Positions 605 through 18,153 of a stretch of DNA of 26,200 nucleotides are shown here, piece after piece. This DNA is from a virus. The position numbers and the translations under genes were made by a program. The notes beneath the pieces are model-generated. The model had not been told where the DNA came from and ran no database searches. It saw only the letters and a list, made by a program, of their open reading frames with translations. Location of the stretch: positions 1 to 26,200 of the IMG/VR virus record IMGVR_UViG_3300000116_000183, one strand, 5' to 3'. Each line of letters opens with the position of its first letter. Positions within the stretch are counted from its first letter, which is position 1.

Positions 605-1525
605 ATGGCAGCACCATATTTTCAAAATTTCCCTCCATTGGAGTACGGGAATACCGTATGCAGGGATATCACACGGCGCGCATTGCTCAATCTCAATTCA
701 GCTGGTGTAGGATTGCTATACTATCCATATGAGATCGAATCACATTTGCGTACCGATCATCTAGCAGAATATTACTATAATGAATCTCAGTACGAATGGG
801 CAGCACTTCTAGCAAATGAAATCGTCGATCCATACTATGGATGGTATAATGATGAAGAGACATTCCAACAATTGATCACCGAAAAATATGGTGATCTGGT
901 AACAGCACAGAAAACGATCAAATACTATATCAACAATTGGGCAGATGATAACAGTCAGATCAGTATTGGCTATCATGACAATGAGCTTGAAGAAGATCTG
1001 AAGAAATATTGGAAACCAGTATACCGTAGACCAACCGAAGTTGTTGGTTACATACGCCGAGAAGATAATATCGTACGCAACACGAACAAGATCCTAGAAT
1101 ACACAATCTCTGCTAATAACGATACGATTGCTGTGCTCAATAATGAACTGGTTGATATCAAAACATCTGGATCTGAAGATGTTGTTGCCAATGGTCAAAT
1201 TGTCACAAGTAATTCATCAATGATCCGTGTAATGAATGTTACAGGAAACACTTTCGCAAATACAACTGTAGTGAAAGATTTGGTCGGTATCACATCTGGT
1301 GCCAATGTATCAGTCAACGAAGTCGTGACAAAATTCGAAAATATCAGCAACACCGAGTTTGCATATTATTCGGCAGTCACGTTCTATGATTGGGAAGTCG
1401 AGAGACGAGAAGCAAATAAAAATATCAATCTGATTGGTGACGCAGATATCGACGGTGTTGCACAGGAATTTGAACGAATCATGAAAAACGATACCGATCC
1501 TGAAACAGGATTTAGCACTGGCTAG
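605..1525 (+). CDS. 53: Baseplate wedge subunit, gp53-like
   Basis: The product has 306 residues. The first 110 match the T4 gp53 pattern: a PLEYG segment, an RTDHLAEYYYN stretch, YEWAALLANEIVDPYYGW (the most diagnostic part) and QQLITEKYG. T4 gp53 is about 196 aa, so this homologue carries a longer C-terminal region with an Asn/Thr-rich segment (about 160-260) and an acidic tail. gp53 is a baseplate wedge protein of contractile-tailed phages. The start is preceded by AAGGAAACGACAATA. The gene end overlaps by 4 bp the end of the converging minus-strand ORF at 1522, so this point divides the + structural block from the - block. Confidence 0.82.
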   Translation: MAAPYFQNFPPLEYGNTVCRDITRRALLNLNSAGVGLLYYPYEIESHLRTDHLAEYYYNESQYEWAALLANEIVDPYYGWYNDEETFQQLITEKYGDLVTAQKTIKYYINNWADDNSQISIGYHDNELEEDLKKYWKPVYRRPTEVVGYIRREDNIVRNTNKILEYTISANNDTIAVLNNELVDIKTSGSEDVVANGQIVTSNSSMIRVMNVTGNTFANTTVVKDLVGITSGANVSVNEVVTKFENISNTEFAYYSAVTFYDWEVERREANKNINLIGDADIDGVAQEFERIMKNDTDPETGFSTG

Positions 1526-1707
1526 AGTCCCGTGTTTGGCATTTGGTATGATTCCGCATCTTTTATCGAACGAGCGCTTGTAGCTCCCATCAGAAGCGCT
1601 ATGGCGTCACGGAAATCCGTAATTGTTGCTTCTCTCGTAGAAGTGACAATTTTTCCATGTACATCTACATACGTGACTATGATTTCTAATTGATATTCTC
1701 TATCCAT
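1522..1707 (-). CDS. Small hypothetical protein
   Basis: About 61 aa, beginning MDREYQLEIIVTYVDVHG and containing a basic TSTREATITDFRDAIALLMG stretch that reads as a beta strand followed by a helix. An upstream GTG at 1737 is possible. I prefer the ATG at 1707 because it overlaps the stop of the HNH gene (ATGGATAG) and would be translated by coupling. It converges with gp53. No family recognised. Confidence 0.6.
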   Translation of the reverse strand: MDREYQLEIIVTYVDVHGKIVTSTREATITDFRDAIALLMGATSARSIKDAESYQMPNTGL

Positions 1708-2200
1708 GATTTGCAAATTCTCCATGTAACTGATCACGCAGCTGTATTGCTTTTGCTATGGCATCTTCTTTATTGACGAACAAACCACCAGAATGATACT
1801 TGTTATTTAACATGACTTGCACTTGCCATTTTCCAGCTGCTTTATGCCAAACGACACCTGTGTGACCAGATGTATTATTCTTGTACTTACCACTATTGGC
1901 ATTATTCTGTGAATGAGTAGCAACACGCAGATTGTCTATGTTGTTGTTCAGTTTGTCTCTATCTGCATGATCAATAGAATTATCTCTTGACGTATCAGTA
2001 ATATCCCATAGCTCATTGAACATTTGATAGATCAATCGATGTGCTCCGTATAGCTTACCTTTGATCTTGATATTTCGATAACCTTTATTGATAGAACCAG
2101 CAGGTTTACTGATATCACCACGTCCAGTACCAGTCTCTTTCCAATACAGATCGTTATCTCGGTATTCAAACAGATCGATTATTGTGTCATACATAGTCAT
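1700..2200 (-). CDS. HNH-AP2 homing endonuclease
   Basis: A 166-aa free-standing homing endonuclease. An N-terminal segment is followed by an HNH_3-type core (YGAHRLIYQMFN, then SIDHADRDKLNNNIDNLRV and THSQNNAN) and a C-terminal AP2-like DNA-binding domain (SGHTGVVWHKAAGKWQVQV, LFVNKEDAIAKA). Such genes spread by cutting related phage genomes beside their own insertion point. The open frame extends upstream to 2257, but the ATG at 2200 has AAGGAG nine bases before it. It lies downstream of the gp32 terminator and has its own strong promoter at 2260-2288, as expected of an autonomous invader between baseplate and replication genes. Confidence 0.85.
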   Translation of the reverse strand: MTMYDTIIDLFEYRDNDLYWKETGTGRGDISKPAGSINKGYRNIKIKGKLYGAHRLIYQMFNELWDITDTSRDNSIDHADRDKLNNNIDNLRVATHSQNNANSGKYKNNTSGHTGVVWHKAAGKWQVQVMLNNKYHSGGLFVNKEDAIAKAIQLRDQLHGEFANHG

Positions 2201-2259
2201 AGCTGATTGCTCCTTGTAAGCGTTAGTGTGGTTGGATATGGGCGTATCGCGAACCACAA

Positions 2260-2288
2260 ATTATATCATAAATCTATTTAGTTGACAA
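2260..2288 (-). promoter_or_regulatory. Sigma70-like promoter for the HNH-AP2 gene, with embedded late-like motif
   Basis: On the minus strand: -35 TTGTCA (2283-2288), a 17-bp spacer, TGA, then a perfect TATAAT -10 (2260-2265). The spacer contains ACTAAATA (2275-2282), the octamer that also lies upstream of other units in this window and resembles the T4 late promoter TATAAATA. Confidence 0.7.
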
Positions 2289-2318
2289 AAAAAGGGGATA
2301 GAATTTAATCCCATCCCC
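2287..2318 (-). terminator. Rho-independent terminator after gp32
   Basis: Minus strand: GGGGAT (2313-2318) pairs with ATCCCC (2294-2299), with partial extra pairing inside, followed directly by seven T residues (2287-2293). It starts 13 bases beyond the gp32 stop and closes that transcription unit. Confidence 0.85.
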
Positions 2319-2330
2319 TCAAATATTTCT

Positions 2331-3233
2331 CTATCCCAATTCGTCCATCAATTTATCCAAATCGAGATCATCGTCGTCCATCCCCGCTACAGGAATATCT
2401 GGTGCGGCCTTCCTTTCCACGGCATCCATTTTGGCATCTGCCGTTACCGGCTTGCTTCCAATCGAATCCATTTGCAAACCAAGTGTATCGTACAATTTTT
2501 TCTGCAAATCAGCATACGATTTGTAATTTTCCGGGTTTGTGAATTCAGTTACATCAATCCCCTGTTTCCATGATTCCTCAATTTCTTCGTCCGTACCCAT
2601 CGTAGATTGCATGTCAAAACGCGAAGAATCGTAGTTACGCATATTATTATCGCTCTGGATCAAGAGACGAAAATTAGCACCTTCCCACATACTGAATGGA
2701 TCTAATGCGTTAGTAGGATTATACCCGTCTGCGCCCTTGGCTCGGCCTTCGTCATCAAAAGGTGGATAAGACAGGTTGTTGATCTTTTCAAAGATCTTCA
2801 ACCCATATTTGAACATAAACACCTTTCCTTCGTTTTCTGGTGCCAAAGAATCTTTAATCACTTTGATGTTAGAATAGAAATGTGTCTTCCTTGATTGTGA
2901 ACGTACAAGTGCTCCTTCGCCTCTATCCCAAAACGGTTGATTGTAGTCCAGTACCGGATCTTTTTCACCAATCGTAGAACGACAGTTCTCAATGTACCAT
3001 CTACCGCTTGGTCCTTTGAATGTATGTGAGAACACTTTGACAAAATTCAGACCATTAGGATCTGGGATGAACCGCAGAAGAGCAGATCCATTTTTCATTT
3101 TATCAACGGTTGGTTCCCAAAAACGCTCATCACGATAAGACTTCTTAGACTTCTTACCACTAACCTCTTCAAGCTCACGTTGCAATGACTCAAGGGAATT
3201 AGAGCGATTGCGTTTCAGTTCATTGAAGTCCAT
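2331..3233 (-). CDS. 32: Single-stranded DNA-binding protein, gp32-like
   Basis: A 300-aa homologue of T4 gp32, which coats ssDNA at replication, recombination and repair forks. The basic N-terminus (NELKRNRSNSLESL) is the LAST-like region for cooperative binding. The OB-fold core is recognisable from GSALLRFIPDPNG, SHTFKGPSGRWYIENC, APENEGKVFMFKYGLKIFEKI and MWEGANFRLLI. The C-terminus is the acidic protein-interaction tail (GMDDDDLDLDKLMDELG). Of the four T4 zinc ligands, the His64 and Cys77 equivalents are present, but the CPVC pair is replaced by PVLDY, so zinc is probably not bound in the T4 manner. The start at 3233 has GAGGAA eight bases upstream; the frame extends to 3281 without another good ribosome site. 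Confidence 0.93.
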   Translation of the reverse strand: MDFNELKRNRSNSLESLQRELEEVSGKKSKKSYRDERFWEPTVDKMKNGSALLRFIPDPNGLNFVKVFSHTFKGPSGRWYIENCRSTIGEKDPVLDYNQPFWDRGEGALVRSQSRKTHFYSNIKVIKDSLAPENEGKVFMFKYGLKIFEKINNLSYPPFDDEGRAKGADGYNPTNALDPFSMWEGANFRLLIQSDNNMRNYDSSRFDMQSTMGTDEEIEESWKQGIDVTEFTNPENYKSYADLQKKLYDTLGLQMDSIGSKPVTADAKMDAVERKAAPDIPVAGMDDDDLDLDKLMDELG

Positions 3234-3297
3234 ATTTGTATTCCTCGTTGTTGCTGCGCATCCGCGCGTTTTAATGTACACACTCGTACAATATAAT

Positions 3298-3326
3298 CTT
3301 ATACAGCATTCTCAATGTCTTGTCAA
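3298..3326 (-). promoter_or_regulatory. Promoter for gp32
   Basis: Minus strand: TTGACA (3321-3326), a 17-bp spacer, TATAAG (3298-3303). It overlaps the end of the upstream membrane-protein gene by position only. The leader to the gp32 start is about 60 bases. Confidence 0.7.
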
Positions 3327-4291: not shown

Positions 4292-4730
4292 CTATCAGTC
4301 CCTCATTGATTAGCTTCATTCTGTTTTCATGATGCGCCGTATTTAGAGTATCGCGCGACACATCACCATTGTATGCTACTGCGAGATGATTGTCAATGAG
4401 ATGGCGATTGAGATTGAATGCGGTTCCATGTCCGAATAGATCAGGATCATTGACCAGGAACTCACCAAGAATACGACCAAATTTTCCACGCTGTGACATC
4501 ACGGATACCATCTGACAACGTGTACCTACAGGCAGAAATTTTTCTACTACTGATTTGGTCAAGTTGCCGAATTTCTTTTCAACGATGTCTGATGTTCGTG
4601 ATTCTGGTGCATCAATACCGTACAGACGAATGTTCTGATCATTCAACGTCATGTTGAAACCAAGATCTATATCGACTTTGATAGTGTCGCCGTCAATGAC
4701 TTGTTTGATGACCACGTTATAAATGTACAT
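4284..4730 (-). CDS. Thermonuclease-like (SNase fold) protein
   Basis: 148 aa from the preferred ATG. It carries the staphylococcal nuclease signature: VIDGDTIKVDIDLGF (metal-binding Asp), NIRLYGIDAPES (Arg and Glu of the active site) and RGKFGRILGEF (second catalytic Arg). Such proteins hydrolyse DNA and RNA with calcium; phage versions may help degrade host DNA. The frame reaches 4778, but that start lies inside a late-promoter-like octamer, so MYIYNVV at 4730 is more sensible. It is first in the operon nuclease - gp33 - small membrane proteins. No signal peptide, so probably intracellular. Confidence 0.85.
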   Translation of the reverse strand: MYIYNVVIKQVIDGDTIKVDIDLGFNMTLNDQNIRLYGIDAPESRTSDIVEKKFGNLTKSVVEKFLPVGTRCQMVSVMSQRGKFGRILGEFLVNDPDLFGHGTAFNLNRHLIDNHLAVAYNGDVSRDTLNTAHHENRMKLINEGLIDG

Positions 4731-4765
4731 TAGAAAATGCCCCGCGTTGTTTGATTGTTGCGAGG

Positions 4766-4773
4766 TATTTAGT
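4766..4773 (-). promoter_or_regulatory. T4-late-like promoter motif
   Basis: ACTAAATA on the minus strand, 36 bases upstream of the nuclease ATG. The same octamer occurs at 2275-2282 and 7262-7269, and CCTAAATA at 12812-12819. T4 late promoters are TATAAATA, so this is a candidate gp33-dependent promoter for the nuclease-gp33 operon. Confidence 0.5.
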
Positions 4774-4795
4774 AGCACAGATTTCCAAAGTTTGG

Positions 4796-4954
4796 TTATG
4801 CGAAAATACTAATGCCAATTATTGCTACTATCAGCGCTAATAAAAATAAACTGATTGCAAGAAAGCTGTTAAGAAAATCAAATAATCCGTTCATGGGATT
4901 GTCATTTTTCATCGGTTCGTTTACTATCCATTTTGTTGTGAACAACAATTTCAT
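4796..4954 (-). CDS. 52-aa membrane protein
   Basis: Starts MKLLFTTKWIVNEPMKND and has one strongly hydrophobic C-terminal helix (FLAISLFLLALIVAIIGISI). A start at the internal MKNDNP is also possible. The ATG lies two bases after the stop of the basic 54-aa gene. No family recognised. Confidence 0.6.
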   Translation of the reverse strand: MKLLFTTKWIVNEPMKNDNPMNGLFDFLNSFLAISLFLLALIVAIIGISIFA

Positions 4955-4956
4955 AA

Positions 4957-5121
4957 TCAGTAATCGTTGTCAATATTTTTTTTGAGTGCGCGTCGAAATC
5001 TCTTATTGTAGGCTCGTTTGACTTTCTTCGCCACGCCTGCTCTAGCAAGATACTTATAGTATTTGCGAGCATTTGTTAGTGCATCATATTCATCGCCACC
5101 CTTAAGCGGTATGCGTTTCAT
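4957..5121 (-). CDS. 54-aa very basic protein
   Basis: The frame reads MKRIPLKGGDEYDALTNARK and continues with a Lys/Arg-rich helix (KKVKRAYNKRFRRALKKN). This suggests nucleic-acid or ribosome contact, which is inference from charge only. The start overlaps the upstream stop as ATGA and the next gene begins within 5 bases. Confidence 0.6.
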   Translation of the reverse strand: MKRIPLKGGDEYDALTNARKYYKYLARAGVAKKVKRAYNKRFRRALKKNIDNDY

Positions 5122-5363
5122 TTTCCTTGTCCTTGTCCTTTTCTTAAATCGCCATTACTGTAGCCTTTTTCCCAAAGAGCATCCATATGATCATCGCGCC
5201 AACCCATTTTCAACTCACAACCATAATGCTTCTGGAACCATGCGCCTATTCTTTTGTTATCTTCTTCGTCTCCTAGATAAGAACTCGTCACATTAGGATT
5301 ATTGACAAAGAACGTTTGAATTTCCATACACTTTTCACATTCAGCCCAATACCAAGTTTTCAT
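5118..5363 (-). CDS. Hypothetical protein with CxxC and Trp-rich N-terminus
   Basis: 81 aa starting MKTWYWAECEKCMEIQTFF, with a Cys-x-x-Cys pair at residues 9 and 12 that could bind a metal, and a Gly/Lys/Gln-rich C-terminus. An excellent ribosome site (GGAGG, six bases before ATG) lies just after the hairpin that ends the tmRNA gene. It may therefore be transcribed by read-through from the tmRNA promoter. No family recognised. Confidence 0.65.
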   Translation of the reverse strand: MKTWYWAECEKCMEIQTFFVNNPNVTSSYLGDEEDNKRIGAWFQKHYGCELKMGWRDDHMDALWEKGYSNGDLRKGQGQGK

Positions 5364-5383
5364 TTCAAACCTCCAAATTAGGT

Positions 5384-5417
5384 GGCAGTTTTATTCTGTT
5401 TCCAAGTCAAAACTGCC
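5384..5417 (-). other. Stem-loop at the 3' end of the tmRNA coding piece
   Basis: A perfect 9-bp inverted repeat: GGCAGTTTT (minus strand, 5409-5417) pairs with AAAACTGCC (5384-5392) across a 16-base loop. It starts 12 bases after the tag stop codon and lacks a T run. It could be a 3'-terminal helix of the coding piece or a processing/termination signal. Confidence 0.7.
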
Positions 5418-5646
5418 AAAAACTCATGACTAGGCAGCAAGTGCCATGTCGATACGCGAGTTATCGTTTGCGTTTACGAGTTTGATCCGATGACGGTGGT
5501 ATCATGCCGGTGATCTAAACTTTCCCTACACTACAGATCGATTCCCAGATCATCCCCCAGAAACACACTCTGTGAATGTGCTTTTGGAGATGGGTGGATT
5601 CGAACCACCGTGTCTGCCAGCTTTAAGATTGCTTCAAGCAACCACA
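5384..5646 (-). ncRNA. ssrA: Permuted (two-piece, alpha-type) tmRNA
   Basis: On the minus strand the acceptor piece comes first. It has a T arm (5593-5609, GGTGG-TTCGAAT-CCACC), the 3' acceptor strand CATCTCC (5586-5592) and discriminator A (5585); CCA is not encoded. After a 27-base spacer (5558-5584) the coding piece starts GGGGATG (5551-5557), which pairs with CATCTCC over 7 bp. The third pair is G-U, the alanine identity element. The following bases GATCTGGGAATCGAT match the tmRNA D-region pattern. The resume ORF (5430-5471) is preceded by TAAAC and reads GCAAACGATAAC..., encoding ANDNSRIDMALAA then TAG. P2-like pairing is available between UCUGU of the coding piece and GCAGA of the acceptor piece, and between UUUAGAU and AUCUUAAA. 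tmRNA with SmpB releases stalled ribosomes and tags the product for proteolysis. Exact mature ends are inferred. Confidence 0.93.
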
Positions 5647-5650
5647 ACTC

Positions 5651-5681
5651 TATTTATAGCACAGGATAATTCAAATGTCAA
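5651..5681 (-). promoter_or_regulatory. Strong tmRNA promoter overlapping a T4-late octamer
   Basis: Minus strand: TTGACA (5676-5681), a 17-bp spacer ending TGC, then TATAAA (5653-5658). The -10 is part of TATAAATA (5651-5658), identical to the T4 late promoter octamer, so the gene may be read both early by host sigma70 and late. Start of transcription is expected near 5646. Confidence 0.78.
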
Positions 5682-5709
5682 CGTTGATCGAAGCAAACTA
5701 TTCTACAAC

Positions 5710-6015
5710 CTAATAGTCATCGTAATCGTAATCATCTTCTGGTTCTTCGCCATACCAAGGATATTGATTCCACCTACGATATGCTTCCCACAAACTATCC
5801 AAAACATCAGGATCGCTGTTGCAACAATGTGCAATGTGACTATAAATCACATCAAAGGATGCATCCTCTTCTTTTGGAAATTCTCGATCGATTCGAACAT
5901 CCTCAATTATGGTTCCTGGGCGATCGTTAGTCACTACGGCTGTTTTCGTAAGCCATCTATGAAACGAATCATGCGCGGATGGCGACTCATTCTTTTCTGT
6001 AGTGGTGTTAGACAT
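5710..6015 (-). CDS. YozE SAM-like domain protein
   Basis: 101 aa. The central part matches the YozE_SAM_like (DUF1250) pattern: SFHRWLTKT, then IDREFPKEEDASFDVIYSHI and VLDSLWEAYRRW. The family is a small helical bundle of unknown molecular role in Firmicutes and phages. The C-terminus is very acidic (EEPEDDYDYDDY). AAGGGA lies nine bases before the ATG and a good promoter at 6052-6080 serves this gene. The recognition is by motif memory only. Confidence 0.62.
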   Translation of the reverse strand: MSNTTTEKNESPSAHDSFHRWLTKTAVVTNDRPGTIIEDVRIDREFPKEEDASFDVIYSHIAHCCNSDPDVLDSLWEAYRRWNQYPWYGEEPEDDYDYDDY

Positions 6016-6051
6016 AATGTGATTTCCCTTGTCTGTGTTTCCAATGATCTG

Positions 6052-6080
6052 AAATTAACACACCGAATCTGAGTTGTCAA
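6052..6080 (-). promoter_or_regulatory. Extended -10 promoter for the YozE-like gene
   Basis: Minus strand: TTGACA (6075-6080), a 17-bp spacer ending TGT, TAATTT (6052-6057). The -35 lies in the palindrome GTTGTCAAC, so the same bases could also feed the divergent HNH gene. Confidence 0.7.
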
Positions 6081-6116
6081 CTACATAACAAATCATGATC
6101 ATGGAGATTTGTTAAT

Positions 6117-6611
6117 ATGCAAAAATATCTGAACTGTTACACATGTAATGCTCCGTTCAAAATTTCTCAAGAAGATTTCAACACAAAAATGGTTCTTGGC
6201 AATTCATCCGTCGTTTTTCATTGTAACAAATGTATGAGGAAAAATAAATCTACACTATCACCATCGAAAACCAAAGAAACATTCACCGGTGATCCAGCAT
6301 TCCTAAAAATTCTGAATAGCTGCAAGCATCGAGGCAAAGATTTCGATTTAGATGGTGAGTATTTGGAAAATCTGTGGAATAAACAAAAATCAAGGTGTAC
6401 GTATACAAATATAATAATGACATTGCCGATCCCTGGAAAAAGGAAAACACCTCATACAGCATCGTTAGATCGAATTGATTCTTCCATTGGTTATATGAAA
6501 GGAAATGTTCAATTCGTTTGCTATTCGATCAACACGGCCAAAAACGATTTCACCGAAATTGAGTTTATTCAATTTGTTGAATCGATGAAAATCATGATAT
6601 CGCTTTCTTGA
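6117..6611 (+). CDS. HNH homing-endonuclease-like protein
   Basis: 164 aa. The N-terminal 45 residues hold two zinc-binding Cys pairs (CYTCNAPF and CNKCMRKN). The C-terminal half has the phage HNH-like block SRCTYTNI, then HTASLDRIDSSIGYMKGNVQ and VCYSINTAKNDFT. It is the only + gene within a long - block and lies between two unrelated minus-strand units, as expected of a free-standing mobile endonuclease. GGAGAT precedes the ATG by about ten bases. Its last 20 bases overlap the end of the converging hydrolase gene. Confidence 0.78.
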   Translation: MQKYLNCYTCNAPFKISQEDFNTKMVLGNSSVVFHCNKCMRKNKSTLSPSKTKETFTGDPAFLKILNSCKHRGKDFDLDGEYLENLWNKQKSRCTYTNIIMTLPIPGKRKTPHTASLDRIDSSIGYMKGNVQFVCYSINTAKNDFTEIEFIQFVESMKIMISLS

Positions 6612-7197
6612 TGATTTCAGCCACATGTTCGTGCTGTAAGATCTCGTGATGGTTGGCGTGGATTGTGTGTACGCGTGCGCTGTCTGGTGTCCAATCCTCT
6701 TGCGAAGAAACACTCACTACACCATCAGTCTTAACCTTTGGCGCAGCAAACGAATGTCCTTTACACGCAATGATACAATCGATATTCTTATCATCATAGT
6801 TCTGTTCTTTGACATCAGTGATGAATTTTGATTTTGGTAAGATGTAAGAGAAGATTGGTGCAGCAAGCATCAAGAAATAATGCATGAATGGATTGAATCC
6901 ACCGATGCCACTAAGTGGTGCTGCAATCGTCACAATGGACGCCACACGCTTGTTTCGTGCTAGGTGCATGGCAAGTATACCACCAAGAGAATGGCCGATG
7001 ACGACAGTCTCTTGCCCATTGTCGGTGAACTCTTTGCATTCTTTGATCGCACGTTTCACAATATCAACTGCTTTCTCTTCTTCACAATCATATTCAAAAT
7101 ATTGAATGTTGTGATCATCATCTAACTTATCGACGATGTAGTTGAAACACGTTCTGGTTGCCCATGCGCCGTGTATCAGAAGAATATTCTTAGCCAT
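6592..7197 (-). CDS. Alpha/beta-fold serine hydrolase
   Basis: 201 aa from MAKNILLIHGAW. The oxyanion HG motif follows the first strand (LLIHGAW), the nucleophile elbow is VVIGHSLGG, and a C-terminal acid (KTDGVVSVSSQ) and His (ANHHEILQHEHV) complete a plausible Ser-Asp-His triad. A hydrophobic insert (HYFLMLAAPIFSYILP) may form a lid. The substrate cannot be told; esterase, lipase-like or acyl-transfer activity are all possible. The frame extends to 7230, but the ATG at 7197 fits the family N-terminus and has GGAACA upstream. It converges with and overlaps the HNH gene. Confidence 0.78.
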   Translation of the reverse strand: MAKNILLIHGAWATRTCFNYIVDKLDDDHNIQYFEYDCEEEKAVDIVKRAIKECKEFTDNGQETVVIGHSLGGILAMHLARNKRVASIVTIAAPLSGIGGFNPFMHYFLMLAAPIFSYILPKSKFITDVKEQNYDDKNIDCIIACKGHSFAAPKVKTDGVVSVSSQEDWTPDSARVHTIHANHHEILQHEHVAEIIKKAIS

Positions 7198-7261
7198 GTT
7201 GTGTTCCAGTTCTAGTATAATTGTCGCCATAGCTCTATCCCATTGTGGTCAACCAATGAGA

Positions 7262-7269
7262 TATTTAGT
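7262..7269 (-). promoter_or_regulatory. T4-late-like motif upstream of the hydrolase
   Basis: ACTAAATA on the minus strand, 65 bases before the preferred hydrolase start and overlapping the stop of the 39-aa ORF. Same octamer as at 2275 and 4766. Confidence 0.45.
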
Positions 7270-7384
7270 CTATCCAGCCATCACCACGAAACAGATGCCA
7301 TGTGCGATGTTTGAATATCTGCCACAGTAACGGTATGAGATAGTCTGCCTCATAACACCCGTTTTCATTTTCATATGTCCACAT
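7265..7384 (-). CDS. 39-aa Trp-rich small protein after spoVR
   Basis: The frame reads MWTYENENGCYEADYLIPLL then WQIFKHRTWHLFRGDGWID. The ATG has AGGA seven bases upstream and sits 8 bases after the spoVR stop, so it is likely the last gene of the prkA operon. Four Trp and an amphipathic centre make a chance ORF less likely. No family recognised. Confidence 0.5.
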   Translation of the reverse strand: MWTYENENGCYEADYLIPLLWQIFKHRTWHLFRGDGWID

Positions 7385-7392
7385 CGTTTATC

Positions 7393-8910
7393 CTAACACC
7401 CAGCAACATCACCATAGAAATCATTCAACGATATTCTGTCTTTCTCGAACTCAACAGAATAACCCCATAGGAACTCCATATACGTCAACACAGCATCCTT
7501 GGTCTTCTCATCCAGCTTCTCTCCGTTTACCGGTGTGTGCTTCAATTCGAGCGTTCTAGAGCCATGAATGTTCGCATTCACCACTTCGATGTCAGGATGA
7601 TACTGAGACATCGAATACTGGTTAGACAATCCACTTCGGATATCATTGAAGTGACTGCGATTCTGAATGGCATTTACGTTATGCTTATCCGATCCTTGTT
7701 TGTCATCAACCTTAAACAACTGCCATTTGCTGACGATCTTCGGACTAAGAAACTGCATGACAAAACTCTCATCACGATAGTTCGCAACGGCATCGAGAAT
7801 GACTTCTTTCCAGTTTTCACCAGCGATGTGCGGAAACATCTCTTTGTCTTCTGCATCCGGTTTTTCACATATTCTACGAATGTCGGTGAACATGTCGAAA
7901 CCAAGCGCATATGGATTGTAACCACTGTAGTGCTTGTGATCATAGGGGAACTGAGTAAGAACACCAGCATGCGAACCAAGGAACTCTAGCATCGATCCTT
8001 CTGTGATCAATCCCTTTTCCCACATACGATACATGATGTAGTAATGAGTGAACGATGCAAATCCTTCGTTCATCAATTTAGTCTGACGTTGCGGATAGAA
8101 ATACTGTGCCATCTTACGCACAATACGTACGATTTCTCTTTCCCATGGTTCTAGTACAGGTGAATGTTTCTCGATGAAGTACAACAAATTCTCTTGTGGC
8201 TCAGAAGGAATTTTCTTCATGCGGCCTTCATCGATGTTGTTGTTGGCTTTCTTTGTTGTTGCTGATTCAGGTAGTGTTGACCATATTCTATCGACTTGTT
8301 GCTGCAAATATTCTGAACGCTCTTTCTGACGTAGCTTCTCATCATGCTTGTTCAGCTTATCTGGTCGCTGATAACGATCAACACCATACGATTGAATTGA
8401 GTGAGCTGCATCGAGTACGTCCTGTACTGGTCCTGGTCCATGCTCATCTTCCATCTTTGAAATGTAGTCTTTGGCAAAGATCAGATAATCAACGATTGAG
8501 TCGGCACTGGTCCACTGTTTGAACAGGTAGTTATTCTTGAAGAAATGATTATGACCGTAACAAGCGTGTGCGATCACCAACGATTGCATTGTCATACTAT
8601 TCTCTTCCATGAGATAAGAGATACATGGATCTGAGTTGATAACGATCTCGTACGCCAGGCCAGATAATCCTTTGCGATACGAATACTCATCTTGAAGATG
8701 GCGTTTGCCGAATGACCAATGATCATACATGATTGGTAAACCAACAGAAGAATAAGCATCCAGCATTTGATCAGAACCAATGATCTCAATTTGATTCTTG
8801 TAAATATCAAGTCCCAATTCTTTGAATGCAATTTCCGCGCATTCCGCATCAACCGCCTTGATAAGATCGAAATTCCAATCTGCGCCAGCAGCAAAAAGTG
8901 GTTTTGTCAT
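7393..8910 (-). CDS. spoVR: SpoVR/YcgB family protein
   Basis: 505 aa from MTKPLFAAGADWNF, close to E. coli YcgB (510 aa). Diagnostic SpoVR blocks: YKNQIEIIGSDQMLDAYSSV, SFGKRHLQDEYSYRKGLSG, AYEIVINSDPCISYLMEENS, MTMQSLVIAHACYGHNHFFK, FTHYYIMYRMWEKGLI and HYSGYNPYALGFDMF. The family was named for a B. subtilis sporulation mutant; in Gram-negative bacteria it is co-conserved with PrkA/YeaG and YeaH in a stationary-phase and nutrient-stress module of unknown biochemistry. The His-containing blocks may bind metal (inference). The start lies one base after the yeaH stop, with GGAGAG overlapping that stop, so translation is coupled. Confidence 0.95.
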   Translation of the reverse strand: MTKPLFAAGADWNFDLIKAVDAECAEIAFKELGLDIYKNQIEIIGSDQMLDAYSSVGLPIMYDHWSFGKRHLQDEYSYRKGLSGLAYEIVINSDPCISYLMEENSMTMQSLVIAHACYGHNHFFKNNYLFKQWTSADSIVDYLIFAKDYISKMEDEHGPGPVQDVLDAAHSIQSYGVDRYQRPDKLNKHDEKLRQKERSEYLQQQVDRIWSTLPESATTKKANNNIDEGRMKKIPSEPQENLLYFIEKHSPVLEPWEREIVRIVRKMAQYFYPQRQTKLMNEGFASFTHYYIMYRMWEKGLITEGSMLEFLGSHAGVLTQFPYDHKHYSGYNPYALGFDMFTDIRRICEKPDAEDKEMFPHIAGENWKEVILDAVANYRDESFVMQFLSPKIVSKWQLFKVDDKQGSDKHNVNAIQNRSHFNDIRSGLSNQYSMSQYHPDIEVVNANIHGSRTLELKHTPVNGEKLDEKTKDAVLTYMEFLWGYSVEFEKDRISLNDFYGDVAGC

Positions 8911-8911
8911 C

Positions 8912-10225
8912 TTACTCTCCAAAAATCTTTGCGTTATCAGCTCTCGTACGATGGAACAGATTGCTAAACACCTTCCATACAGAACTTTTGTCAGGAACAC
9001 GTTGCAGTGCTAGATTCTTATTGGTTTCGATGTGCTTCCTGAATGACTTCCATAACGAAGTCGTGTCCATCAAATGACCATTCTGTACCCATTGCTTCTT
9101 ATAGTCTGATAGTGTTTCGATATAGGCGTAGTATTGCACAATACCTAGCAGATCTTCGATATACTGCTCAGTCAATGTCTCATCAGCTGGATAATTATCA
9201 CCGTCTGATGCTTGTGCGATATAGATGTTCCAATCATCTGGCTTGTATCTCTCGTTGATGATTTTCTTTGTCAATGATAATGCTTCGGATACTACAGTGC
9301 CACCACTGATCTTCGAATGGAAAAATTCATCTTCCTCCACTTCCCTTGCTTCTGCATGGTGCGCAATGAAGACGACATGCACATTGTTATATTTGCGACG
9401 AAGAAACATATTCAGAAGTACAAAGAAACGCTTGGCAACATCCTTCTCATCCTCGCCCATTGAGAATGATACATCCATCACACAAAACATTACTGCCTGT
9501 GTGTGAGGCTTTGGAACTTTGACTTGGTTTTTGTATCGAACATCGAACGGATCAATCCATGGAATTGCCTTACGTTTTTTCTCAAGACGCTCAATCTCTG
9601 CGCGAATAGCAGGACGATCTTCTTCTGGTGTGCCACCAAAATACAGCAACGCTTTCAGATCTTGGATTTCTTCTAATGAAGGACGTCGAAGGCCAATCTT
9701 ACGACCAATGGCATTCTTCATAGAACGCACGATATCTAACTGTGAAGGATTACCTTCGTTCTTGTAGCCACTGTTGATTGTCTCGTACTGTGTGACATTC
9801 TTCAGTTGTTTTTTGATGAAATCTGGAAGTTCCATCTCTTCGAACACATAGTCACGAAACTCTTCATCAGTCAAAAGAAATTCGAAGCTATCTTCGCCTT
9901 CACCATCCGGTGAGCCTTCACCCTGCCCTGGTCCTTGGCCACCAGATCCTTGTTCTGGTTTCTTGATATGATCACCAGGGACAAATTCTTTGTTACCGGG
10001 CAGAACATATTCTTTGTCACCAGTCTTTCGATTGTTGCCGAATGTTGGTTCAGATGTTGGATTGACGCGAACTTTTTTGTTGTTCTTTGTCATATCAACA
10101 TCACCAGAATCTAATGTTCTCCGCACAGCTTCTTTGATCTGCTTCTTATGCAAATCCATAAATCGTTTTCTATTCTTCAATGCTTTATCGCGCGGATTGA
10201 GTCTTCGATCAACGATATGCGTCAT
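8912..10225 (-). CDS. yeaH: YeaH/DUF444 von Willebrand-type protein
   Basis: 437 aa against 427 for E. coli YeaH, and alike over the whole length. The N-terminus IVDRRLNPRDKALKNRKRF matches the family. A Gly/Gln/Pro-rich linker follows (residues 92-110), then DPFDVRYKNQV and AVMFCVMDVSFSM, the MIDAS motif (Asp251, Ser253, Ser255). HHAEAREVEEDEFFHSKISGG and AQASDGDN (Asp341) complete it. The protein is thought to act with the PrkA kinase and SpoVR; its partner is not known. The start immediately follows the stop of the inserted GIY-YIG gene (TGAATG), with GAGG eight bases upstream. Confidence 0.95.
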   Translation of the reverse strand: MTHIVDRRLNPRDKALKNRKRFMDLHKKQIKEAVRRTLDSGDVDMTKNNKKVRVNPTSEPTFGNNRKTGDKEYVLPGNKEFVPGDHIKKPEQGSGGQGPGQGEGSPDGEGEDSFEFLLTDEEFRDYVFEEMELPDFIKKQLKNVTQYETINSGYKNEGNPSQLDIVRSMKNAIGRKIGLRRPSLEEIQDLKALLYFGGTPEEDRPAIRAEIERLEKKRKAIPWIDPFDVRYKNQVKVPKPHTQAVMFCVMDVSFSMGEDEKDVAKRFFVLLNMFLRRKYNNVHVVFIAHHAEAREVEEDEFFHSKISGGTVVSEALSLTKKIINERYKPDDWNIYIAQASDGDNYPADETLTEQYIEDLLGIVQYYAYIETLSDYKKQWVQNGHLMDTTSLWKSFRKHIETNKNLALQRVPDKSSVWKVFSNLFHRTRADNAKIFGE

Positions 10226-10762
10226 TCATTTTTTCCTCTTAATACCGTACACAAAACCATCTGGAAGTGATTCTCCGTTACGTATTTTCATAGTGCGTTT
10301 GCCATTGGTAACCCAACGTGTGCCATACTGGCTATTTCTTTCACCGGTTTGACCAGACGATAGTTTCTTTATATAGGCATCCCAATCACCGCGTTCTTGA
10401 ATAAATTCCTTGTTGCCGCGTAGTAAATTATCCATGCCTTTTTTATGAACATTCTTACCAGTCTTATTGACATGTCCAAAGCCACCGTCGCCACCGGGAT
10501 TGATGTTATACGTGTCTTCTCTCAGACAAAATTTCTCAGTAACGATCTCTTTTTCTTTCGCAACCATCTCTTTGCGAGTATCGAAAATATGTAGAACGCA
10601 CTTCTTGAATTTATCCTTTCCATATTTCGTAATTGCCAGTCGAATTCTTTTACCACTTCCGAAGTAGTTGTCATATGGATCATCTGTCTCATGCATCCCC
10701 ACATAGAATTGCTTTGTAATTGTGTTCGTTGTTCTGTAGATCGTGTAGTATTTTTTAGCCAT
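10226..10762 (-). CDS. GIY-YIG homing endonuclease inserted in the prkA operon
   Basis: 178 aa from MAKKYYTIYRTTN. The GIY-YIG nuclease module is clear: YYTIYRTTN and FYVGMHET, DNYFGSGKRI, and a catalytic Glu region (EMVAKEKEIV). After PGGDGGFG comes a basic C-terminal DNA-binding part with GERNSQYGTRWVTNGKR, typical of Seg-like free-standing enzymes. The frame continues to 10834 but overlaps prkA; the ATG at 10762 fits the family. A strong hairpin (10769-10792) covers its ribosome site, which suggests low or timed translation. It separates prkA from yeaH, genes normally adjacent in bacteria. Confidence 0.88.
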   Translation of the reverse strand: MAKKYYTIYRTTNTITKQFYVGMHETDDPYDNYFGSGKRIRLAITKYGKDKFKKCVLHIFDTRKEMVAKEKEIVTEKFCLREDTYNINPGGDGGFGHVNKTGKNVHKKGMDNLLRGNKEFIQERGDWDAYIKKLSSGQTGERNSQYGTRWVTNGKRTMKIRNGESLPDGFVYGIKRKK

Positions 10763-10768
10763 GATCAG

Positions 10769-10792
10769 TGGCGGGAGATTTCTCCCCCGCCA
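10769..10792 (-). promoter_or_regulatory. Ribosome-site hairpin before the GIY-YIG gene
   Basis: TGGCGGGAGA (10769-10778) pairs with TCTCCCCCGCCA (10781-10792) with a two-base bulge and a very short loop. On the minus strand it contains the GGAGA that would serve the endonuclease start. No T run follows, so translational control or transcript protection is more likely than termination. It lies 8 bases past the prkA stop. Confidence 0.72.
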
Positions 10793-10799
10793 TCCCCAA

Positions 10800-12734
10800 T
10801 TAACCAGCTTTGCGAACGCGACAATACCAGTCAACTAGACGACGAATTTGTTTGGGTGTATATCCACGCACGGACATACGATTAACAAAATCATCATGCT
10901 TACGTTGCATCTCTTTTGACTTTTTATCGTCAAACGAAATGACAGGTAGCAGATCCTCGATCTGACTAAAGATACGCTTCTCAATCACTTCACGCAGAAG
11001 AGAATATGAGGTCCACTTAACATCTTCACCAGTACGAGCTTTTGCACGAAGACAGAAGTTTACAACCTCGTTTCGGAAATCCTTGGGATTTGATTTACCA
11101 GCAGCCTTTTCCATCTTCTCTAGTTCTTCGTTCAAGAGCGAACGATTCATCAGTAGTCCAGTGTCTGGATCTTTGAACTCCTGATCCTGCAACCATGCAT
11201 CTGCATACGACAGATACCGCATAAACAAGTTCTGACCATACTCATCATACGATTCCAAGTAGCACTTCTGAATTTCGTTACCAAGAAACTCTGCATACTT
11301 ACCAGCAAGATCTTCCTTAATGAAGGTGAGATATCTTGTTTCCACATCTTCTGGAAACTGTTCTTTCTTGATGGCTTGTTCCAACACAAACATCATGTGT
11401 ACAGGATCTGCCGCCACTTCATCAGAAGAGTAGTTGAACGTCTTACTCAGGATCTTATACGCAAATCGAGTTGATGTGCCATCCATGCCTTCCTCTTGGC
11501 CAGCAACATCACGATACTCTTGCATCGTCTTGGCCTTTGGATCAGACTCACGAATATTCTCACCATCATACACGCGCATTTTACTATAGAGTGTTGAGTT
11601 TTCATGTTCCTTAAGTCGAGTCAGGACAGAGAACTCAGACAACATACGCAATGTACGTGGTGCGCATGGTGCATCGATTAGGCCAGATGACTCGATCATT
11701 TTCTCATAGATCTTGACTTCTTCAGTACGACGCAAACAGTACGGAACTTTGATCACACAAATACGATCCAAGAACGCTTCATTGTTCTTGTTGTTCTTGA
11801 ATGATGTCCATTCCGATTGGTTAGAGTGAGCCAAGATGATACCAGAGAACGGCATAGCAGAGATTGCTTCTGTGCCTGTGTAATTGCCTTCCTGTGTTGC
11901 AGTGAGCAATGGATACAGAACCTTGATTGGTGCTTTGAACATCTCAACGAATTCAAGCATGCCTTGTGACGTACGATTGAGGCCACCAGAATAAGAATAA
12001 GCGTCTGCGTCGTGCTGACTAAAGTGTTCGAGTTGACGAATATCAACCTTACCAACCAACGAAGAAATGTCTTGATTGTTTTCGTCGCCCGGTTCAGTCT
12101 TCATGATGCCAATTTGTTCCAAACGTGATGGATTAATTTTGACAACACGAAATTGATTGATGTCGTACTTGAACTCTTTGAGACGCTTAATTGCCCATGG
12201 TGACATGATCTGACCAAAATATCGCATGTCGATATTGTGATCTTTGGAAAGATCCCTTTGATGCTCTTTGTTTTGAAACAGTCCTAGTGGAGATTCGTAC
12301 AGTGGTGAGATGTCGCCATCTGCTGTTGCCAAACAATAGATTGGCATTTTCTCCATCAGCTCTTTGAGTGTTTCTGCCAGTGAGGATTTACCACCACCAA
12401 CCGGACCAAGCAAATAGAGGATCTGTTTACGTTCTTCCAATCCTTGTGCGGCGTGTTTGAAATAACCAACGATCGATTCGATGGTGTCTTCCATGCCATG
12501 AAATTCTTTGAACGCTGGATACACGCGAAGTGTGCGATTGCTGAAAATACGTGACTGGCGAGGATCTTTGTTTGTGTCCACCAATTGGGGTTCACCAATA
12601 GCCTCAACCATACGCTCGGCTGCGGAAGCATAGGCCATCTTGTCAGTTTCACACAATTCAAAATATGCATCCAATGTCATGAACTGAGGTTCGCGGCCCT
12701 CGTAGTAACTGTGGAATTTTTGTGATAGTGGCAT
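10800..12734 (-). CDS. prkA: PrkA/YeaG serine protein kinase (AAA+ type)
   Basis: 644 aa from the ATG at 12734, the same length as E. coli YeaG. Family blocks run throughout: RVYPAFKEFHGMEDTIESIV, the Walker A GPVGGGKSS (residues 110-118), IYCLATADGDISPLYESPLG, EMFKAPIKVLYPLLTATQEG, ISAMPFSGIILAHSNQSEW and AFLDRICVIKVPYCLRRTEE. PrkA proteins have an AAA+ N-terminal part and a C-terminal region resembling cAMP-dependent kinases; in enterobacteria they act in starvation adaptation. The frame opens at 12743, but AGGAG is only one base from that ATG and ten from the one at 12734. It is first in the operon prkA - GIY-YIG - yeaH - spoVR, under the promoter at 12771-12799. Confidence 0.95.
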   Translation of the reverse strand: MPLSQKFHSYYEGREPQFMTLDAYFELCETDKMAYASAAERMVEAIGEPQLVDTNKDPRQSRIFSNRTLRVYPAFKEFHGMEDTIESIVGYFKHAAQGLEERKQILYLLGPVGGGKSSLAETLKELMEKMPIYCLATADGDISPLYESPLGLFQNKEHQRDLSKDHNIDMRYFGQIMSPWAIKRLKEFKYDINQFRVVKINPSRLEQIGIMKTEPGDENNQDISSLVGKVDIRQLEHFSQHDADAYSYSGGLNRTSQGMLEFVEMFKAPIKVLYPLLTATQEGNYTGTEAISAMPFSGIILAHSNQSEWTSFKNNKNNEAFLDRICVIKVPYCLRRTEEVKIYEKMIESSGLIDAPCAPRTLRMLSEFSVLTRLKEHENSTLYSKMRVYDGENIRESDPKAKTMQEYRDVAGQEEGMDGTSTRFAYKILSKTFNYSSDEVAADPVHMMFVLEQAIKKEQFPEDVETRYLTFIKEDLAGKYAEFLGNEIQKCYLESYDEYGQNLFMRYLSYADAWLQDQEFKDPDTGLLMNRSLLNEELEKMEKAAGKSNPKDFRNEVVNFCLRAKARTGEDVKWTSYSLLREVIEKRIFSQIEDLLPVISFDDKKSKEMQRKHDDFVNRMSVRGYTPKQIRRLVDWYCRVRKAG

Positions 12735-12770
12735 AGTGCGCATTCTCCTGTCATACTGTTAATATCGCTG

Positions 12771-12799
12771 AATCTAGCACAGCTCTGTTATATAGTCAA
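12771..12799 (-). promoter_or_regulatory. Promoter of the prkA operon
   Basis: Minus strand: TTGACT (12794-12799), a 17-bp spacer ending TGC, TAGATT (12771-12776). This matches the window's extended -10 pattern. It sits in the divergent gap between prkA and the + cell-wall hydrolase gene. Confidence 0.75.
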
Positions 12800-12819: not shown

Positions 12820-12850
12820 GCTCTATTAACTAATTTGAAGGGTGTCAGTC

Positions 12851-14179
12851 ATGTCATTTCCAAGAGATCTTGGTAGAGTATCAGCAAAATATGAATCGGG
12901 TGGCCGTGGTGTTGCGTTTGTTAGCAATGGATCTGCATGGGGTGATCCTGGTGGCGATAGCTATGGTGTCCATCAACTATCCGGTGCATATTCCATGGGC
13001 GCTTTTCTACGTTCTTCGTGGGGCAAACCTTACAAATCAAAATTTGGTTCACTCAAACCAGGAACAAAATGGTTCAACTCGAAATACAAACAAGTTGCCT
13101 ATGCAGATCCAGATGGATTTGGTTATGCACAGAAAGCATTCTATGCAACCACTCACTACATCCCTGTGCGCGACCATGCAGCCAAACTAGGCTTTGATGT
13201 CACAGACAGAGGCATACAAGAGGCTTTGTTCTCTATGAGTGTGCAACATGGTGGAGCAAAGAAAATCGTCTCTGCGGCCCATTCTGAAGGTTTACCAAGC
13301 CATCCATCTGACCAGATCAAGGCTCTGTATCGTGAGCGTGTGGATTATGTCAATGGATTGCGTTCTCTATCCTGCGAAATCAAACGATCATTGGTCAACA
13401 ATCGCTATAAAGACGAACTGCGTGATGTTCTCGAATTGGTCGGTGAATACGAAGCTGGTGAAGTCGAACACGTGAAACCGTCTGATACGCTACAGGAAGA
13501 TGTTGGTGATTCTGCGCAAGGCATGTTGCTTACGTTGTTCAAGCTTCTTATGAGTATCGTCAGTGCCATTTTTGGTGGTCTTAAACGAGCCAAAGATCGT
13601 GTCAATGAATCGATTGTCATTCCACAGGACATCGACGAAGCTGTAATTGATGAAGAAGTCAAAGCTGGTAAAGAATTACCTTGGATGGCTACTGCAAAAC
13701 GTTTGATGGGAACCAAAGAAATTTCCGGCAAACGATCCAATAGTGTCATCATGAATTGGGCAAAGCAGCTCGGTGGTTTTGTGAAAAATGTTTATACAAA
13801 CGATGATACGCCATGGTGTGGATTGTTCATTGCGCACATCTTCGATAACAATGGCATCAAAGTGAAGTTCAAAAATCCACTTGGTGCTCGTAATTGGCGC
13901 AATTTTGGTTTCGAGACTACGCCACGATATGGTGCTGTAATGGTATTCTGGCGCGGTAAGAAATCTGGATGGTCTGGTCATGTTGGAATGTACGTATCAG
14001 AAGATGCAAACTACTATCACATTCTCGGTGGCAATCAATCCAATATGGTCAATGTAACTAAGGTTGCAAAGAACAGACTGCTTGCGTCCAGATTTCCGAA
14101 TGGGTACGAAGGACGGGTAGGCGATTATCATGCAATCACAAAGAAGTTCGATGGTAAAGTATCAACGAATGAGGAATAA
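12851..14179 (+). CDS. Two-domain peptidoglycan hydrolase (glycosidase-like plus TIGR02594/NlpC-P60-like)
   Basis: 442 aa. The N-terminal half (to about 200) has AKYESGGRGVAFVSNG and GGDSYGVHQLSG, a pattern seen in phage lysozyme/transglycosylase-like domains with a candidate catalytic Glu in YESGG. Residues 225-245 form a hydrophobic helix (MLLTLFKLLMSIVSAIFGGL). The C-terminal half matches TIGR02594 proteins: PWMATAKRLMGTKEISG, NDDTPWCGLFIAHIF (Cys nucleophile), GARNWRNFGF, GAVMVFWRGKKSGWSGHVGM (His) and YHILGGNQSNMVNVTK. It could be the endolysin, membrane-tethered by the central helix, or a tail-associated lysin. The ATG at 12851, with AAGGG upstream, is preferred to the GTG at 12842. Confidence 0.83.
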   Translation: MSFPRDLGRVSAKYESGGRGVAFVSNGSAWGDPGGDSYGVHQLSGAYSMGAFLRSSWGKPYKSKFGSLKPGTKWFNSKYKQVAYADPDGFGYAQKAFYATTHYIPVRDHAAKLGFDVTDRGIQEALFSMSVQHGGAKKIVSAAHSEGLPSHPSDQIKALYRERVDYVNGLRSLSCEIKRSLVNNRYKDELRDVLELVGEYEAGEVEHVKPSDTLQEDVGDSAQGMLLTLFKLLMSIVSAIFGGLKRAKDRVNESIVIPQDIDEAVIDEEVKAGKELPWMATAKRLMGTKEISGKRSNSVIMNWAKQLGGFVKNVYTNDDTPWCGLFIAHIFDNNGIKVKFKNPLGARNWRNFGFETTPRYGAVMVFWRGKKSGWSGHVGMYVSEDANYYHILGGNQSNMVNVTKVAKNRLLASRFPNGYEGRVGDYHAITKKFDGKVSTNEE

Positions 14180-17015: not shown

Positions 17016-17035
17016 CATGCTCATCCTAGTAACCT
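17016..17035 (-). repeat. 20-bp direct repeat, copy 2
   Basis: Identical to 16481-16500, 535 bp away. It contains the end of the leucine dehydrogenase gene; beyond its stop an ATG AGC ATG TAA remnant mirrors the start of the 77-aa gene. Confidence 0.85.
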
Positions 17036-18034
17036 TGCCATTGACATATCCATAGCCACAGAGTGTGTGTCCACATTGCCCTCATCTGCTAGTTTTAGGA
17101 TACTCAGTGTCCGATCCTTGATCGCATCTAGCTCAATCATATGATCATCACCCGTCACATCCTGGCACGCAGCAATAACACCACCCGCATTAACAATGAA
17201 ATCTGGTACATACAGAATACCCAATGATTTCAATGTCTTAGACACCGACGCAGGATACGTCAATTGATTGTTTGCAATACCACAGATTGCCTTACAATGC
17301 AACTGATCTGCAATTCTGGCGCTGATCACACCACCCAATGCACACGGCATAAGGACATCACAATCGGTGCGTAAGATGTCTTCACCAGAAGAATCTACAC
17401 TCGCAACACCTTCGAAGTCAAGTGCTTTCTTAACCACATCAGCATTGATATCGCTAACAGTAATGTTGCGCGCACCAGCTGCATGTAGTCTTTCGAGCAT
17501 GCCCCAGCCAGTCTGTCCTAATCCCTGGATGGCAAACGACATGTCCTTGATGTCCATGCCCATGAACTCAGAAAGCCCCTCCACGGCCTTGTATGCCCCT
17601 TTGGCGGTAGATCCTGAGATTGGTCGTTGAATACCACACACGTAAGGTGTTGCTTTCCCCACGATTTTCATATCTTCGATGGTAGTACCAACGTCGATCG
17701 CAGTGTAGTATTGCCCACCAAGTTCATTGATGTGATATCCAAATGCTTCGAACAGTTCTTTGCGATCTTTACCGTCCCAACGATTGGCAATAATCACCGA
17801 TTTACCGCCGCCCAATGGCAGATTGGCACATGAGTTTTTGTGCGTCATACCGGCAGACAGTCGCAGAACATCATCCATTGCTCGATTAGGATGATCGTAT
17901 TTTGTGAACCGACAACCACCCAAAGCAGGACCAAGACGGGTATCATGGATAGCAATGAAGCCTTGTAGTCGACCACCCAAGTCATTGAAGATAAAGCATT
18001 TTTCGTGATTGTCATAATACTCGTGCGTGAACAT
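17021..18034 (-). CDS. Leucine dehydrogenase-like (Glu/Leu/Phe/Val dehydrogenase)
   Basis: 337 aa. The family oxidatively deaminates branched-chain amino acids to 2-oxo acids with NAD+, reversibly. Visible: GPALGGCRFTKY, MTHKNSCANLPLGGGKSVII with both active-site Lys (about 66 and 78), TAIDVGTTIEDM with the catalytic Asp, the Rossmann turn QGLGQTGWG, LMPCALGGVI, CGIANNQL and PDFIVNAGGVI. Spacing of the two Lys and the Asp agrees with Bacillus LeuDH. All motifs look intact, so it should be active; leucine versus other amino acids is inference. The ATG at 18034 has AAGGG nine bases upstream and shares a base with the previous stop (TGATG). Confidence 0.9.
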   Translation of the reverse strand: MFTHEYYDNHEKCFIFNDLGGRLQGFIAIHDTRLGPALGGCRFTKYDHPNRAMDDVLRLSAGMTHKNSCANLPLGGGKSVIIANRWDGKDRKELFEAFGYHINELGGQYYTAIDVGTTIEDMKIVGKATPYVCGIQRPISGSTAKGAYKAVEGLSEFMGMDIKDMSFAIQGLGQTGWGMLERLHAAGARNITVSDINADVVKKALDFEGVASVDSSGEDILRTDCDVLMPCALGGVISARIADQLHCKAICGIANNQLTYPASVSKTLKSLGILYVPDFIVNAGGVIAACQDVTGDDHMIELDAIKDRTLSILKLADEGNVDTHSVAMDMSMARLLG

Positions 18035-18153
18035 CACATAATTCCCTTCTCGATTAGTGTTTCAATGATCCATACTGAGAATATGAAAAATCCCAGTAGA
18101 GTTGCGCATGCAGCTAGATAAGCTGCAATGCATTCTACTAATGGTTGTTTCAC
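18034..18153 (-). CDS. 39-aa membrane peptide
   Basis: From a GTG at 18153 overlapping the upstream stop (GTGA): (M)KQPLVECIAAYLAACATLLG, then FFIFSVWIIETLIEKGIM. One transmembrane helix. It bridges the secreted-protein gene and the dehydrogenase gene, overlapping both, which is the main support. Confidence 0.55.
   Translation of the reverse strand: MKQPLVECIAAYLAACATLLGFFIFSVWIIETLIEKGIM

Follow-up and report, generated by a model that had tools for sequence, protein, structure and literature searches.

The window analysed here, the 26,200-nucleotide stretch at positions 1 to 26,200 of the IMG/VR virus record IMGVR_UViG_3300000116_000183, carries the genes prkA, yeaH and spoVR, which almost certainly represent the proteobacterial prkA-yeaH-spoVR operon in an intact, phage-borne copy. 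Judging from its sequence, the trio is complete and apparently functional, and it belongs to an existing, little-noticed class of phages bearing the same genes. The explanation we favour, taken whole, is that the phage copy of the operon would encode a protein-remodelling machine with a role in maintaining a stress-adapted state; we give it an even chance of being right. PrkA, YeaH and SpoVR are widespread in bacteria, and the literature conflicts over their joint biochemistry (kinase, protease or neither). What is new and most useful here is a metal-site hypothesis for SpoVR, together with the wide extent of the phage class. The operon is laid out as follows.

10800-12734, minus strand: prkA/yeaG, AAA+ ATPase with a PrkA C-terminal kinase-like domain, 644 amino acids (Pfam, NCBIfam)
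10226-10762, minus strand: free-standing GIY-YIG (SegE-like) homing endonuclease, about 178 amino acids (phrog_314, 1.8e-34)
8912-10225, minus strand: yeaH (DUF444), VWA-domain protein, 437 amino acids (Pfam, NCBIfam, VWA model)
7393-8910, minus strand: spoVR/ycgB, SpoVR family, 505 amino acids (Pfam, NCBIfam, structural model)

An earlier note, made from the letters of this DNA, had described three full-length genes with intact Walker A, MIDAS (metal ion-dependent adhesion site) and SpoVR blocks; we found the same lengths, and the key residues were confirmed in alignments. PrkA matched PF08298 (AAA_PrkA, 5.3e-166) and PF06798 (PrkA C-terminal, 4.6e-66), YeaH matched PF04285 (DUF444, 3.6e-142), and SpoVR matched PF04293 (about 3e-159) and PF24755. 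All three also passed the NCBIfam equivalog cut-offs (PrkA (PRK15455), 1122.5 versus 576 bits; YeaH, 502.1 versus 396 bits; SpoVR, 731.8 versus 679 bits). The Walker A motif GxxGxGKS of PrkA is intact (K116/S117), and K427 is equivalent to K426 of YeaG; these residues are invariant in 33 aligned PrkAs. Likewise, the MIDAS of YeaH is complete (D251/S253/S255/T310/D341, invariant in 43 aligned sequences), and the invariant residues of SpoVR are kept in the window protein. None of the PADLOC anti-phage defence profile families matched the three proteins.

The prkA gene starts with an ATG at 12734, just 5' of which lies a Shine-Dalgarno sequence, AGGAG; the TGA stop of the GIY-YIG gene directly abuts the ATG of yeaH, and spoVR begins 1 nt past the yeaH stop. 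The endonuclease gene also matched PF19835 (3.4e-4, under the gathering score). Thus, the bacterial gene order reported earlier holds, with all three genes on the same strand, but the genes are not contiguous because the endonuclease gene lies between prkA and yeaH; it is the only interruption of the operon. The same lysozyme-prkA-endonuclease-yeaH layout was found in a second contig, L002 (handles of this kind denote the other contigs and loci compared), whose PrkA and endonuclease are 100% and 93% identical, respectively, to those of the window.

Single-sequence scans yielded viral loci with PrkA (22), SpoVR (15) and YeaH (11), and a profile scan of IMG/VR detected 261 viral stretches carrying PrkA relatives. 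The best 80 of the latter were kept, from which 77 loci were newly fetched. The order PrkA-YeaH-SpoVR appeared in 67 of these 77 phage loci, the remaining 10 being without YeaH or SpoVR mostly because the stretch ends. After removal of the overlap between both sets, all three genes were present on about 90 contigs, some of which are near-identical copies and some maybe host DNA. The same gene order was found in 105 of 110 bacterial loci. The T4 major capsid gene gp23 was detected on 6 of the 34 trio contigs tested for it, and the T4 portal gene on 9 of 40; contigs with either gene include those of 158, 176, 202, 323, 342 and 578 kilobases (kb). The earlier note was mistaken in implying that the trio is rare; large phages often carry it, and GenBank already contained it with phiYS40. 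In a limited literature search, which is no proof of novelty, we found no paper that treats the trio as a module of phages or SpoVR as a metallopeptidase; a study of an oxygen-minimum-zone virome lists SpoVR by itself among viral auxiliary genes (PMC8940887). As a side observation, some trio phages carry transfer RNA (tRNA) genes with a CUA anticodon, assigned to Pyl by ARAGORN (L009:3967-4042, L027:9829-9903, L028:3715-3789 and L041:19727-19801); these are possible amber suppressors hinting at stop-codon recoding.

The operons of characterised bacteria (the three-gene operon of R. etli; yeaGH plus ycgB of E. coli) comprise the same three orthologues, in the same order and at full length, and PrkA of the window is 64% identical to YeaG of E. 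coli and 68% to its best bacterial match, from Azospirillum. The window differs from these operons in being phage-borne, in its phage-only clade (see below) and in the homing endonuclease gene between prkA and yeaH; in E. coli, unlike in the window, spoVR (ycgB) is unlinked to yeaGH. The Thermus phages phiYS40, MN1 and Lalka8 also keep PrkA-like, VWA and SpoVR-like genes close together, but in the order VWA-SpoVR-PrkA, with only about 25% identity to the window and a divergent HxxGH motif in SpoVR. Three uncultured 600-kb phages (LR745206, LR756504 and LR756502) are closer to the window in PrkA (57-60% identity) than in YeaH (38-40%) and SpoVR (46-50%). The trio is linked in LR745206 and linked with insertions in LR756504, whose SpoVR, unlike that of the window, bears an intein-like insert; in LR756502 SpoVR is unlinked. 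For the Ralstonia jumbo phage RsoM2USA, the published ORF (open reading frame) table lists SpoVR as ORF28 and PrkA as ORF30 (PMC8504454), and the intervening ORF29 would, from its position, be YeaH.

Selfish elements have repeatedly invaded the phage operons and not the bacterial ones sampled. Inteins with C...HN borders lengthen several of the phage trio proteins. An intein lies right behind the Walker A lysine of PrkA in L015/L017, and four insert sites were recognised in SpoVR: after Y53 (L046, L023), at H-A-C (L015), after Q276 (L036) and inside NEG (L132). The Pfam intein-splicing model scored above its cut-off for L015 PrkA and L036 SpoVR and weakly for three others, and the L015 SpoVR insert, without Pfam support, was identified by its borders alone. 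L015 thus combines in one phage a PrkA Walker A intein and an intein-like SpoVR insert (4488-7658 and 8970-11378). In the window, L005, L025 and L041, operon genes are separated by GIY-YIG or HNH endonuclease genes, and L003 and L044 have GIY-YIG-like ORFs in such places. Among the bacteria sampled, there was no enlarged trio protein, and only 1 of 214 gaps was as long as 300 bases. Inteins and homing endonucleases typically occupy conserved sites in genes that the host cannot lose, and the repeated invasion agrees with the module being important to the phages. The window itself is rich in homing-type nucleases, with HNH and endonuclease VII-like genes at 1700-2257 (minus strand) and 6117-6611 (plus strand).

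The SpoVR family is uncharacterised so far, and here the phage sequences suggest a candidate metal site. The AlphaFold2 model of SpoVR had a pLDDT (predicted local distance difference test) of 84.6. When the Foldseek candidates for this model were realigned with VIA-align, zincins of M1, M32, M3, M2, M61 and other families ranked at the top and made up most of the top 50; the scores included Z 12.5 for 3o0y (202 residues, 3.9 Å) and Z 10.7 for an M1 aminopeptidase. H115, H120 and E282, the candidate metal ligands (two His and one Glu, as in gluzincins), are invariant in 41 sequences, the two histidines forming H115-A-x-x-G-H120. Diverged SpoVRs (those of the Thermus phages, LR756511, L199 and L021) carry H-x-x-G-H, which has the spacing of HExxH, so that divergent phage proteins reveal a hidden HExxH-like motif. 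The invariant E282, part of N-E282-G in the window protein, lies within [NH]EGxA, which resembles the NEGFA motif of M1, the source of the third zinc ligand. Together, the H-x-x-G-H spacing and [NH]EGxA provide a hint of gluzincin likeness that is independent of the model. The position of the catalytic glutamate is never Glu in 205 of 205 readable SpoVR motifs, being Ala or Val in nearly all, and for this reason we do not file SpoVR as an active metallopeptidase. SpoVR is thus probably a gluzincin-like protein that binds metal and lacks the usual catalytic residue; if it is zincin-like, the family gains a concrete metal-site hypothesis.

The model of YeaH is a VWA domain (Z 16.9), whose Foldseek matches include the MIDAS of Rea1/MDN1 and NorQD, with Rpn10 added on realignment. 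In both Rea1/MDN1 and NorQD, a MIDAS protein is paired with an AAA+ machine. A sequence search of the PDB returned a solved relative of PrkA (9xip) and no structure for SpoVR or YeaH. We consider an AAA+/MIDAS/zincin-like arrangement of the trio as apt to be right as to be wrong. In this scheme, PrkA would act as a remodelling AAA+ enzyme powered by ATP, and YeaH would serve it as MIDAS adaptor or recognise the substrates; SpoVR would be a metal-binding effector of gluzincin fold that lost the catalytic Glu, i.e., a pseudo-peptidase or a redirected metalloenzyme. It is attractive to speculate, albeit tentatively, that the three form a split AAA+ "pseudo-FtsH", in which PrkA unfolds or remodels polypeptides, the YeaH MIDAS presents substrates, and metal-bound SpoVR holds or processes the polypeptide without a catalytic Glu; such a device may serve as a wide, conserved infection module of large phages, hit repeatedly at its conserved sites by selfish elements. 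What the trio would share with FtsH/FtsHi is the pairing of an AAA+ motor and a partner of zincin fold, possibly one that is catalytically dead; FtsHi pseudo-proteases do exist (PMC8197885). The trio would differ from FtsH/FtsHi in its separate polypeptides, in being gluzincin-like rather than M41, and in having a MIDAS protein in the set.

Several results weigh against this arrangement. Foldseek gave no significant match for the SpoVR model (best E, 0.85), and chance can give helical models Z scores like those of SpoVR. HHalign probabilities of SpoVR versus M1 and M32 were below 1%, but this comparison is uninformative because the positive control, M1 versus M32, failed likewise. The case for a direct PrkA-YeaH-SpoVR complex, moreover, is one of gene linkage alone. 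SpoVR had no peptidase match in Pfam at E ≤ 10.

Other machines can be imagined from the same parts. The AAA+ plus MIDAS architecture and the presence of NorQD among the YeaH matches would suit an activation chaperone of the MoxR/VWA type (as NorQ-NorD and CbbQ-CbbO), in which PrkA-YeaH inserts metal into, or remodels, a metalloenzyme, the client being SpoVR or a phage enzyme. The same phage encodes a second AAA+/CobT-like pair (19941-23180, minus strand; phrog_249 and phrog_459), so that it possesses two AAA+/VWA-type systems, which also favours a chaperone. Nevertheless, PrkA matched only AAA_PrkA and the PrkA C-terminal domain in Pfam at E ≤ 0.001, with no MoxR-type AAA_3/AAA_5, and no common client gene was found beside the trio; we regard a chaperone of this type as unlikely.

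An active AAA+ metalloprotease, in which PrkA feeds SpoVR, another general base replaces the Glu of HExxH, and host proteins are degraded or amino acids recycled, would be in line with the zincin-like fold of the SpoVR model and with its further invariant polar residues (H64, E88, E154, H170, E259 and H289). Limited protease activity has been ascribed to PrkA of B. subtilis (Zhang 2022, as related in PMC13001217). The invariable loss of Glu from the catalytic position described above makes such a protease improbable in our estimation.

The kinase-like PrkA C-terminal domain and the K426-equivalent lysine, invariant in 33 of 33 aligned PrkAs, could instead point to a Ser/Thr kinase by which the phage phosphorylates host targets, with YeaH and SpoVR as regulators or substrates; the K426 mutant of YeaG has been used as "catalytically defective" (PMC10954441). 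Phosphorylation of host targets, which the earlier note had put forward, is doubtful because purified PrkA of B. anthracis, classed with YME1-like AAA+ proteins, showed no detectable kinase activity (and no protease activity by itself; PMC13001217). A kinase would also leave the strict linkage to VWA and SpoVR proteins unexplained, and we judge it quite unlikely.

In trees of 81-86 proteins each, built from "quick" searches and containing several long branches that leave the deep phage branching unsure, each of the three proteins put the window into the same phage-only clade, which has 14 rows (SH-aLRT support: PrkA, 97; SpoVR, 100; YeaH, 100), and this clade is the firm part of the trees. The nearest neighbour of the window was L006 (176 kb, bearing both gp23 and portal genes) in the PrkA and YeaH trees, and L006 and L026 in the SpoVR tree. 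The recurrence of the same clade shows that the three genes have been passed on together for a long time, within a T4-like phage lineage. Phylogeny of each protein had been proposed as a check for unrelated donors; none were seen, and separate donors for the three genes can be rejected from the shared clade and the recurrent sister L006. Over the whole trees, the phages split into several lineages, with at least three to four label changes.

The ratio of nonsynonymous to synonymous substitution rates (dN/dS) for the pair L024-L025 was 0.011 for PrkA, 0.067 for YeaH and 0.044 for SpoVR; dS was unsaturated in some pairs only, and for all three genes only in this one. PrkA of the window and that of L002 differed by zero replacement changes (dS, 0.04). 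These values point to strong purifying selection on the trio in one phage pair, a substitution pattern expected of a gene set in use. Gene decay was rejected on account of the full lengths, the invariant residues and this low dN/dS. That the trio is host DNA or newly captured cargo with no function in the phage does have parallels, in L007, which is nested inside Acetobacteraceae in three trees and probably stems from the host or was captured recently, and in Enterobacter phage LAU1 (L130, record positions 1-3308), whose yeaGH sits at the extreme record edge, clusters closely with its E. coli counterpart and has the appearance of host DNA within a deposited phage genome, but for the window it is extremely improbable given the deep phage-only clade in three trees, the purifying selection in a related pair, a G+C content of about 41% all along the contig, and the flanking gp53/gp32 genes.

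As to physiology, prkA of R. etli, the first gene of the three-gene operon there, is induced by (p)ppGpp more strongly than any other gene (PMC3188799). The YeaG and YeaH proteins of E. coli jointly put a brake on metabolism: in mutants, survival of nitrogen starvation is poorer and regrowth is faster, and overexpression lengthens the lag (PMC10954441). The phage may produce the trio in the infected cell, its most likely use being to establish or keep up a stress-adapted, quiescent protein state, in which infection could continue in slow or starved cells. By analogy with these homologues, holding such a state is a possible purpose, one that we rate somewhat short of even. The earlier suggestion that the phage prolongs metabolic activity runs counter to the braking role of the E. 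coli proteins, which makes it the less likely direction. That the trio has spread among both T4-like and jumbo phages suggests that manipulation of the host starvation programme is a common, overlooked phage strategy. In addition, the phage trios supply deep, independent sequence diversity, in which natural intein sites flag conserved segments.

The surrounding genes identify the window as a fragment of a T4-like myovirus; the record is classed as linear and is probably a fragment. The remaining features near the operon are as follows.

3-1525, plus strand: tail-tube-cap and baseplate-wedge gp53 genes (T4-like)
2331-3281, minus strand: gp32-like single-stranded DNA-binding protein
6592-7230, minus strand: alpha/beta hydrolase, immediately downstream of spoVR (PF12697, 4.9e-10)
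12771-12799, minus strand: candidate sigma70-like promoter, TTGACT-N17-TAGATT (TGn before TAGATT), upstream of prkA, not above chance
12842-14179, plus strand: VgrG3-like/CHAP baseplate lysozyme-like protein

These flanking phage genes on an IMG/VR virus contig bear out the earlier statement that the trio is phage-carried. Contamination or misassembly was rejected from the flanking myovirus genes, the second contig L002 and the phage-only clade in three trees. The single sigma70-like promoter that had been assigned to the trio fared less well: the box exists, yet promoter-like sites in the region (17) were fewer than in shuffled sequences (23.8 +/- 5.0). No common box was recognised by eye in the upstream stretches inspected in other phages, and none of the nine loci checked had the T4 late box TATAAATA upstream of prkA. 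The alpha/beta hydrolase is a possible associate of the trio: similar genes lie close to the operon in L025/L038/L039, and L043 has one separating prkA from yeaH.

Further genes were noted in the window. A permuted two-piece transfer-messenger RNA (tmRNA) of alphaproteobacterial type, with the tag ANDNSRIDMALAA, lies at 5339-5674 (minus strand; Rfam RF04321, 97 bits), and similar two-piece tmRNAs were found near the trio in L006, L030 and L041; such tmRNAs of phages, mostly aquatic, are already known (PMC9004378). A Leu/Glu/Trp-dehydrogenase-like gene at 17021-18037 (minus strand) had no PHROG match, and its nearest NCBIfam model was the ScyB tryptophan dehydrogenase, under the cut-off. S-adenosylmethionine decarboxylase, over the NCBIfam cut-off, is encoded at 19390-19851 (minus strand), and its gene is also found near the trio in L024, L025, L210, L214, L215 and L217. 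The tmRNA, the decarboxylase and the dehydrogenase-like gene are compatible with a slow-growth lifestyle, without being proof of it.

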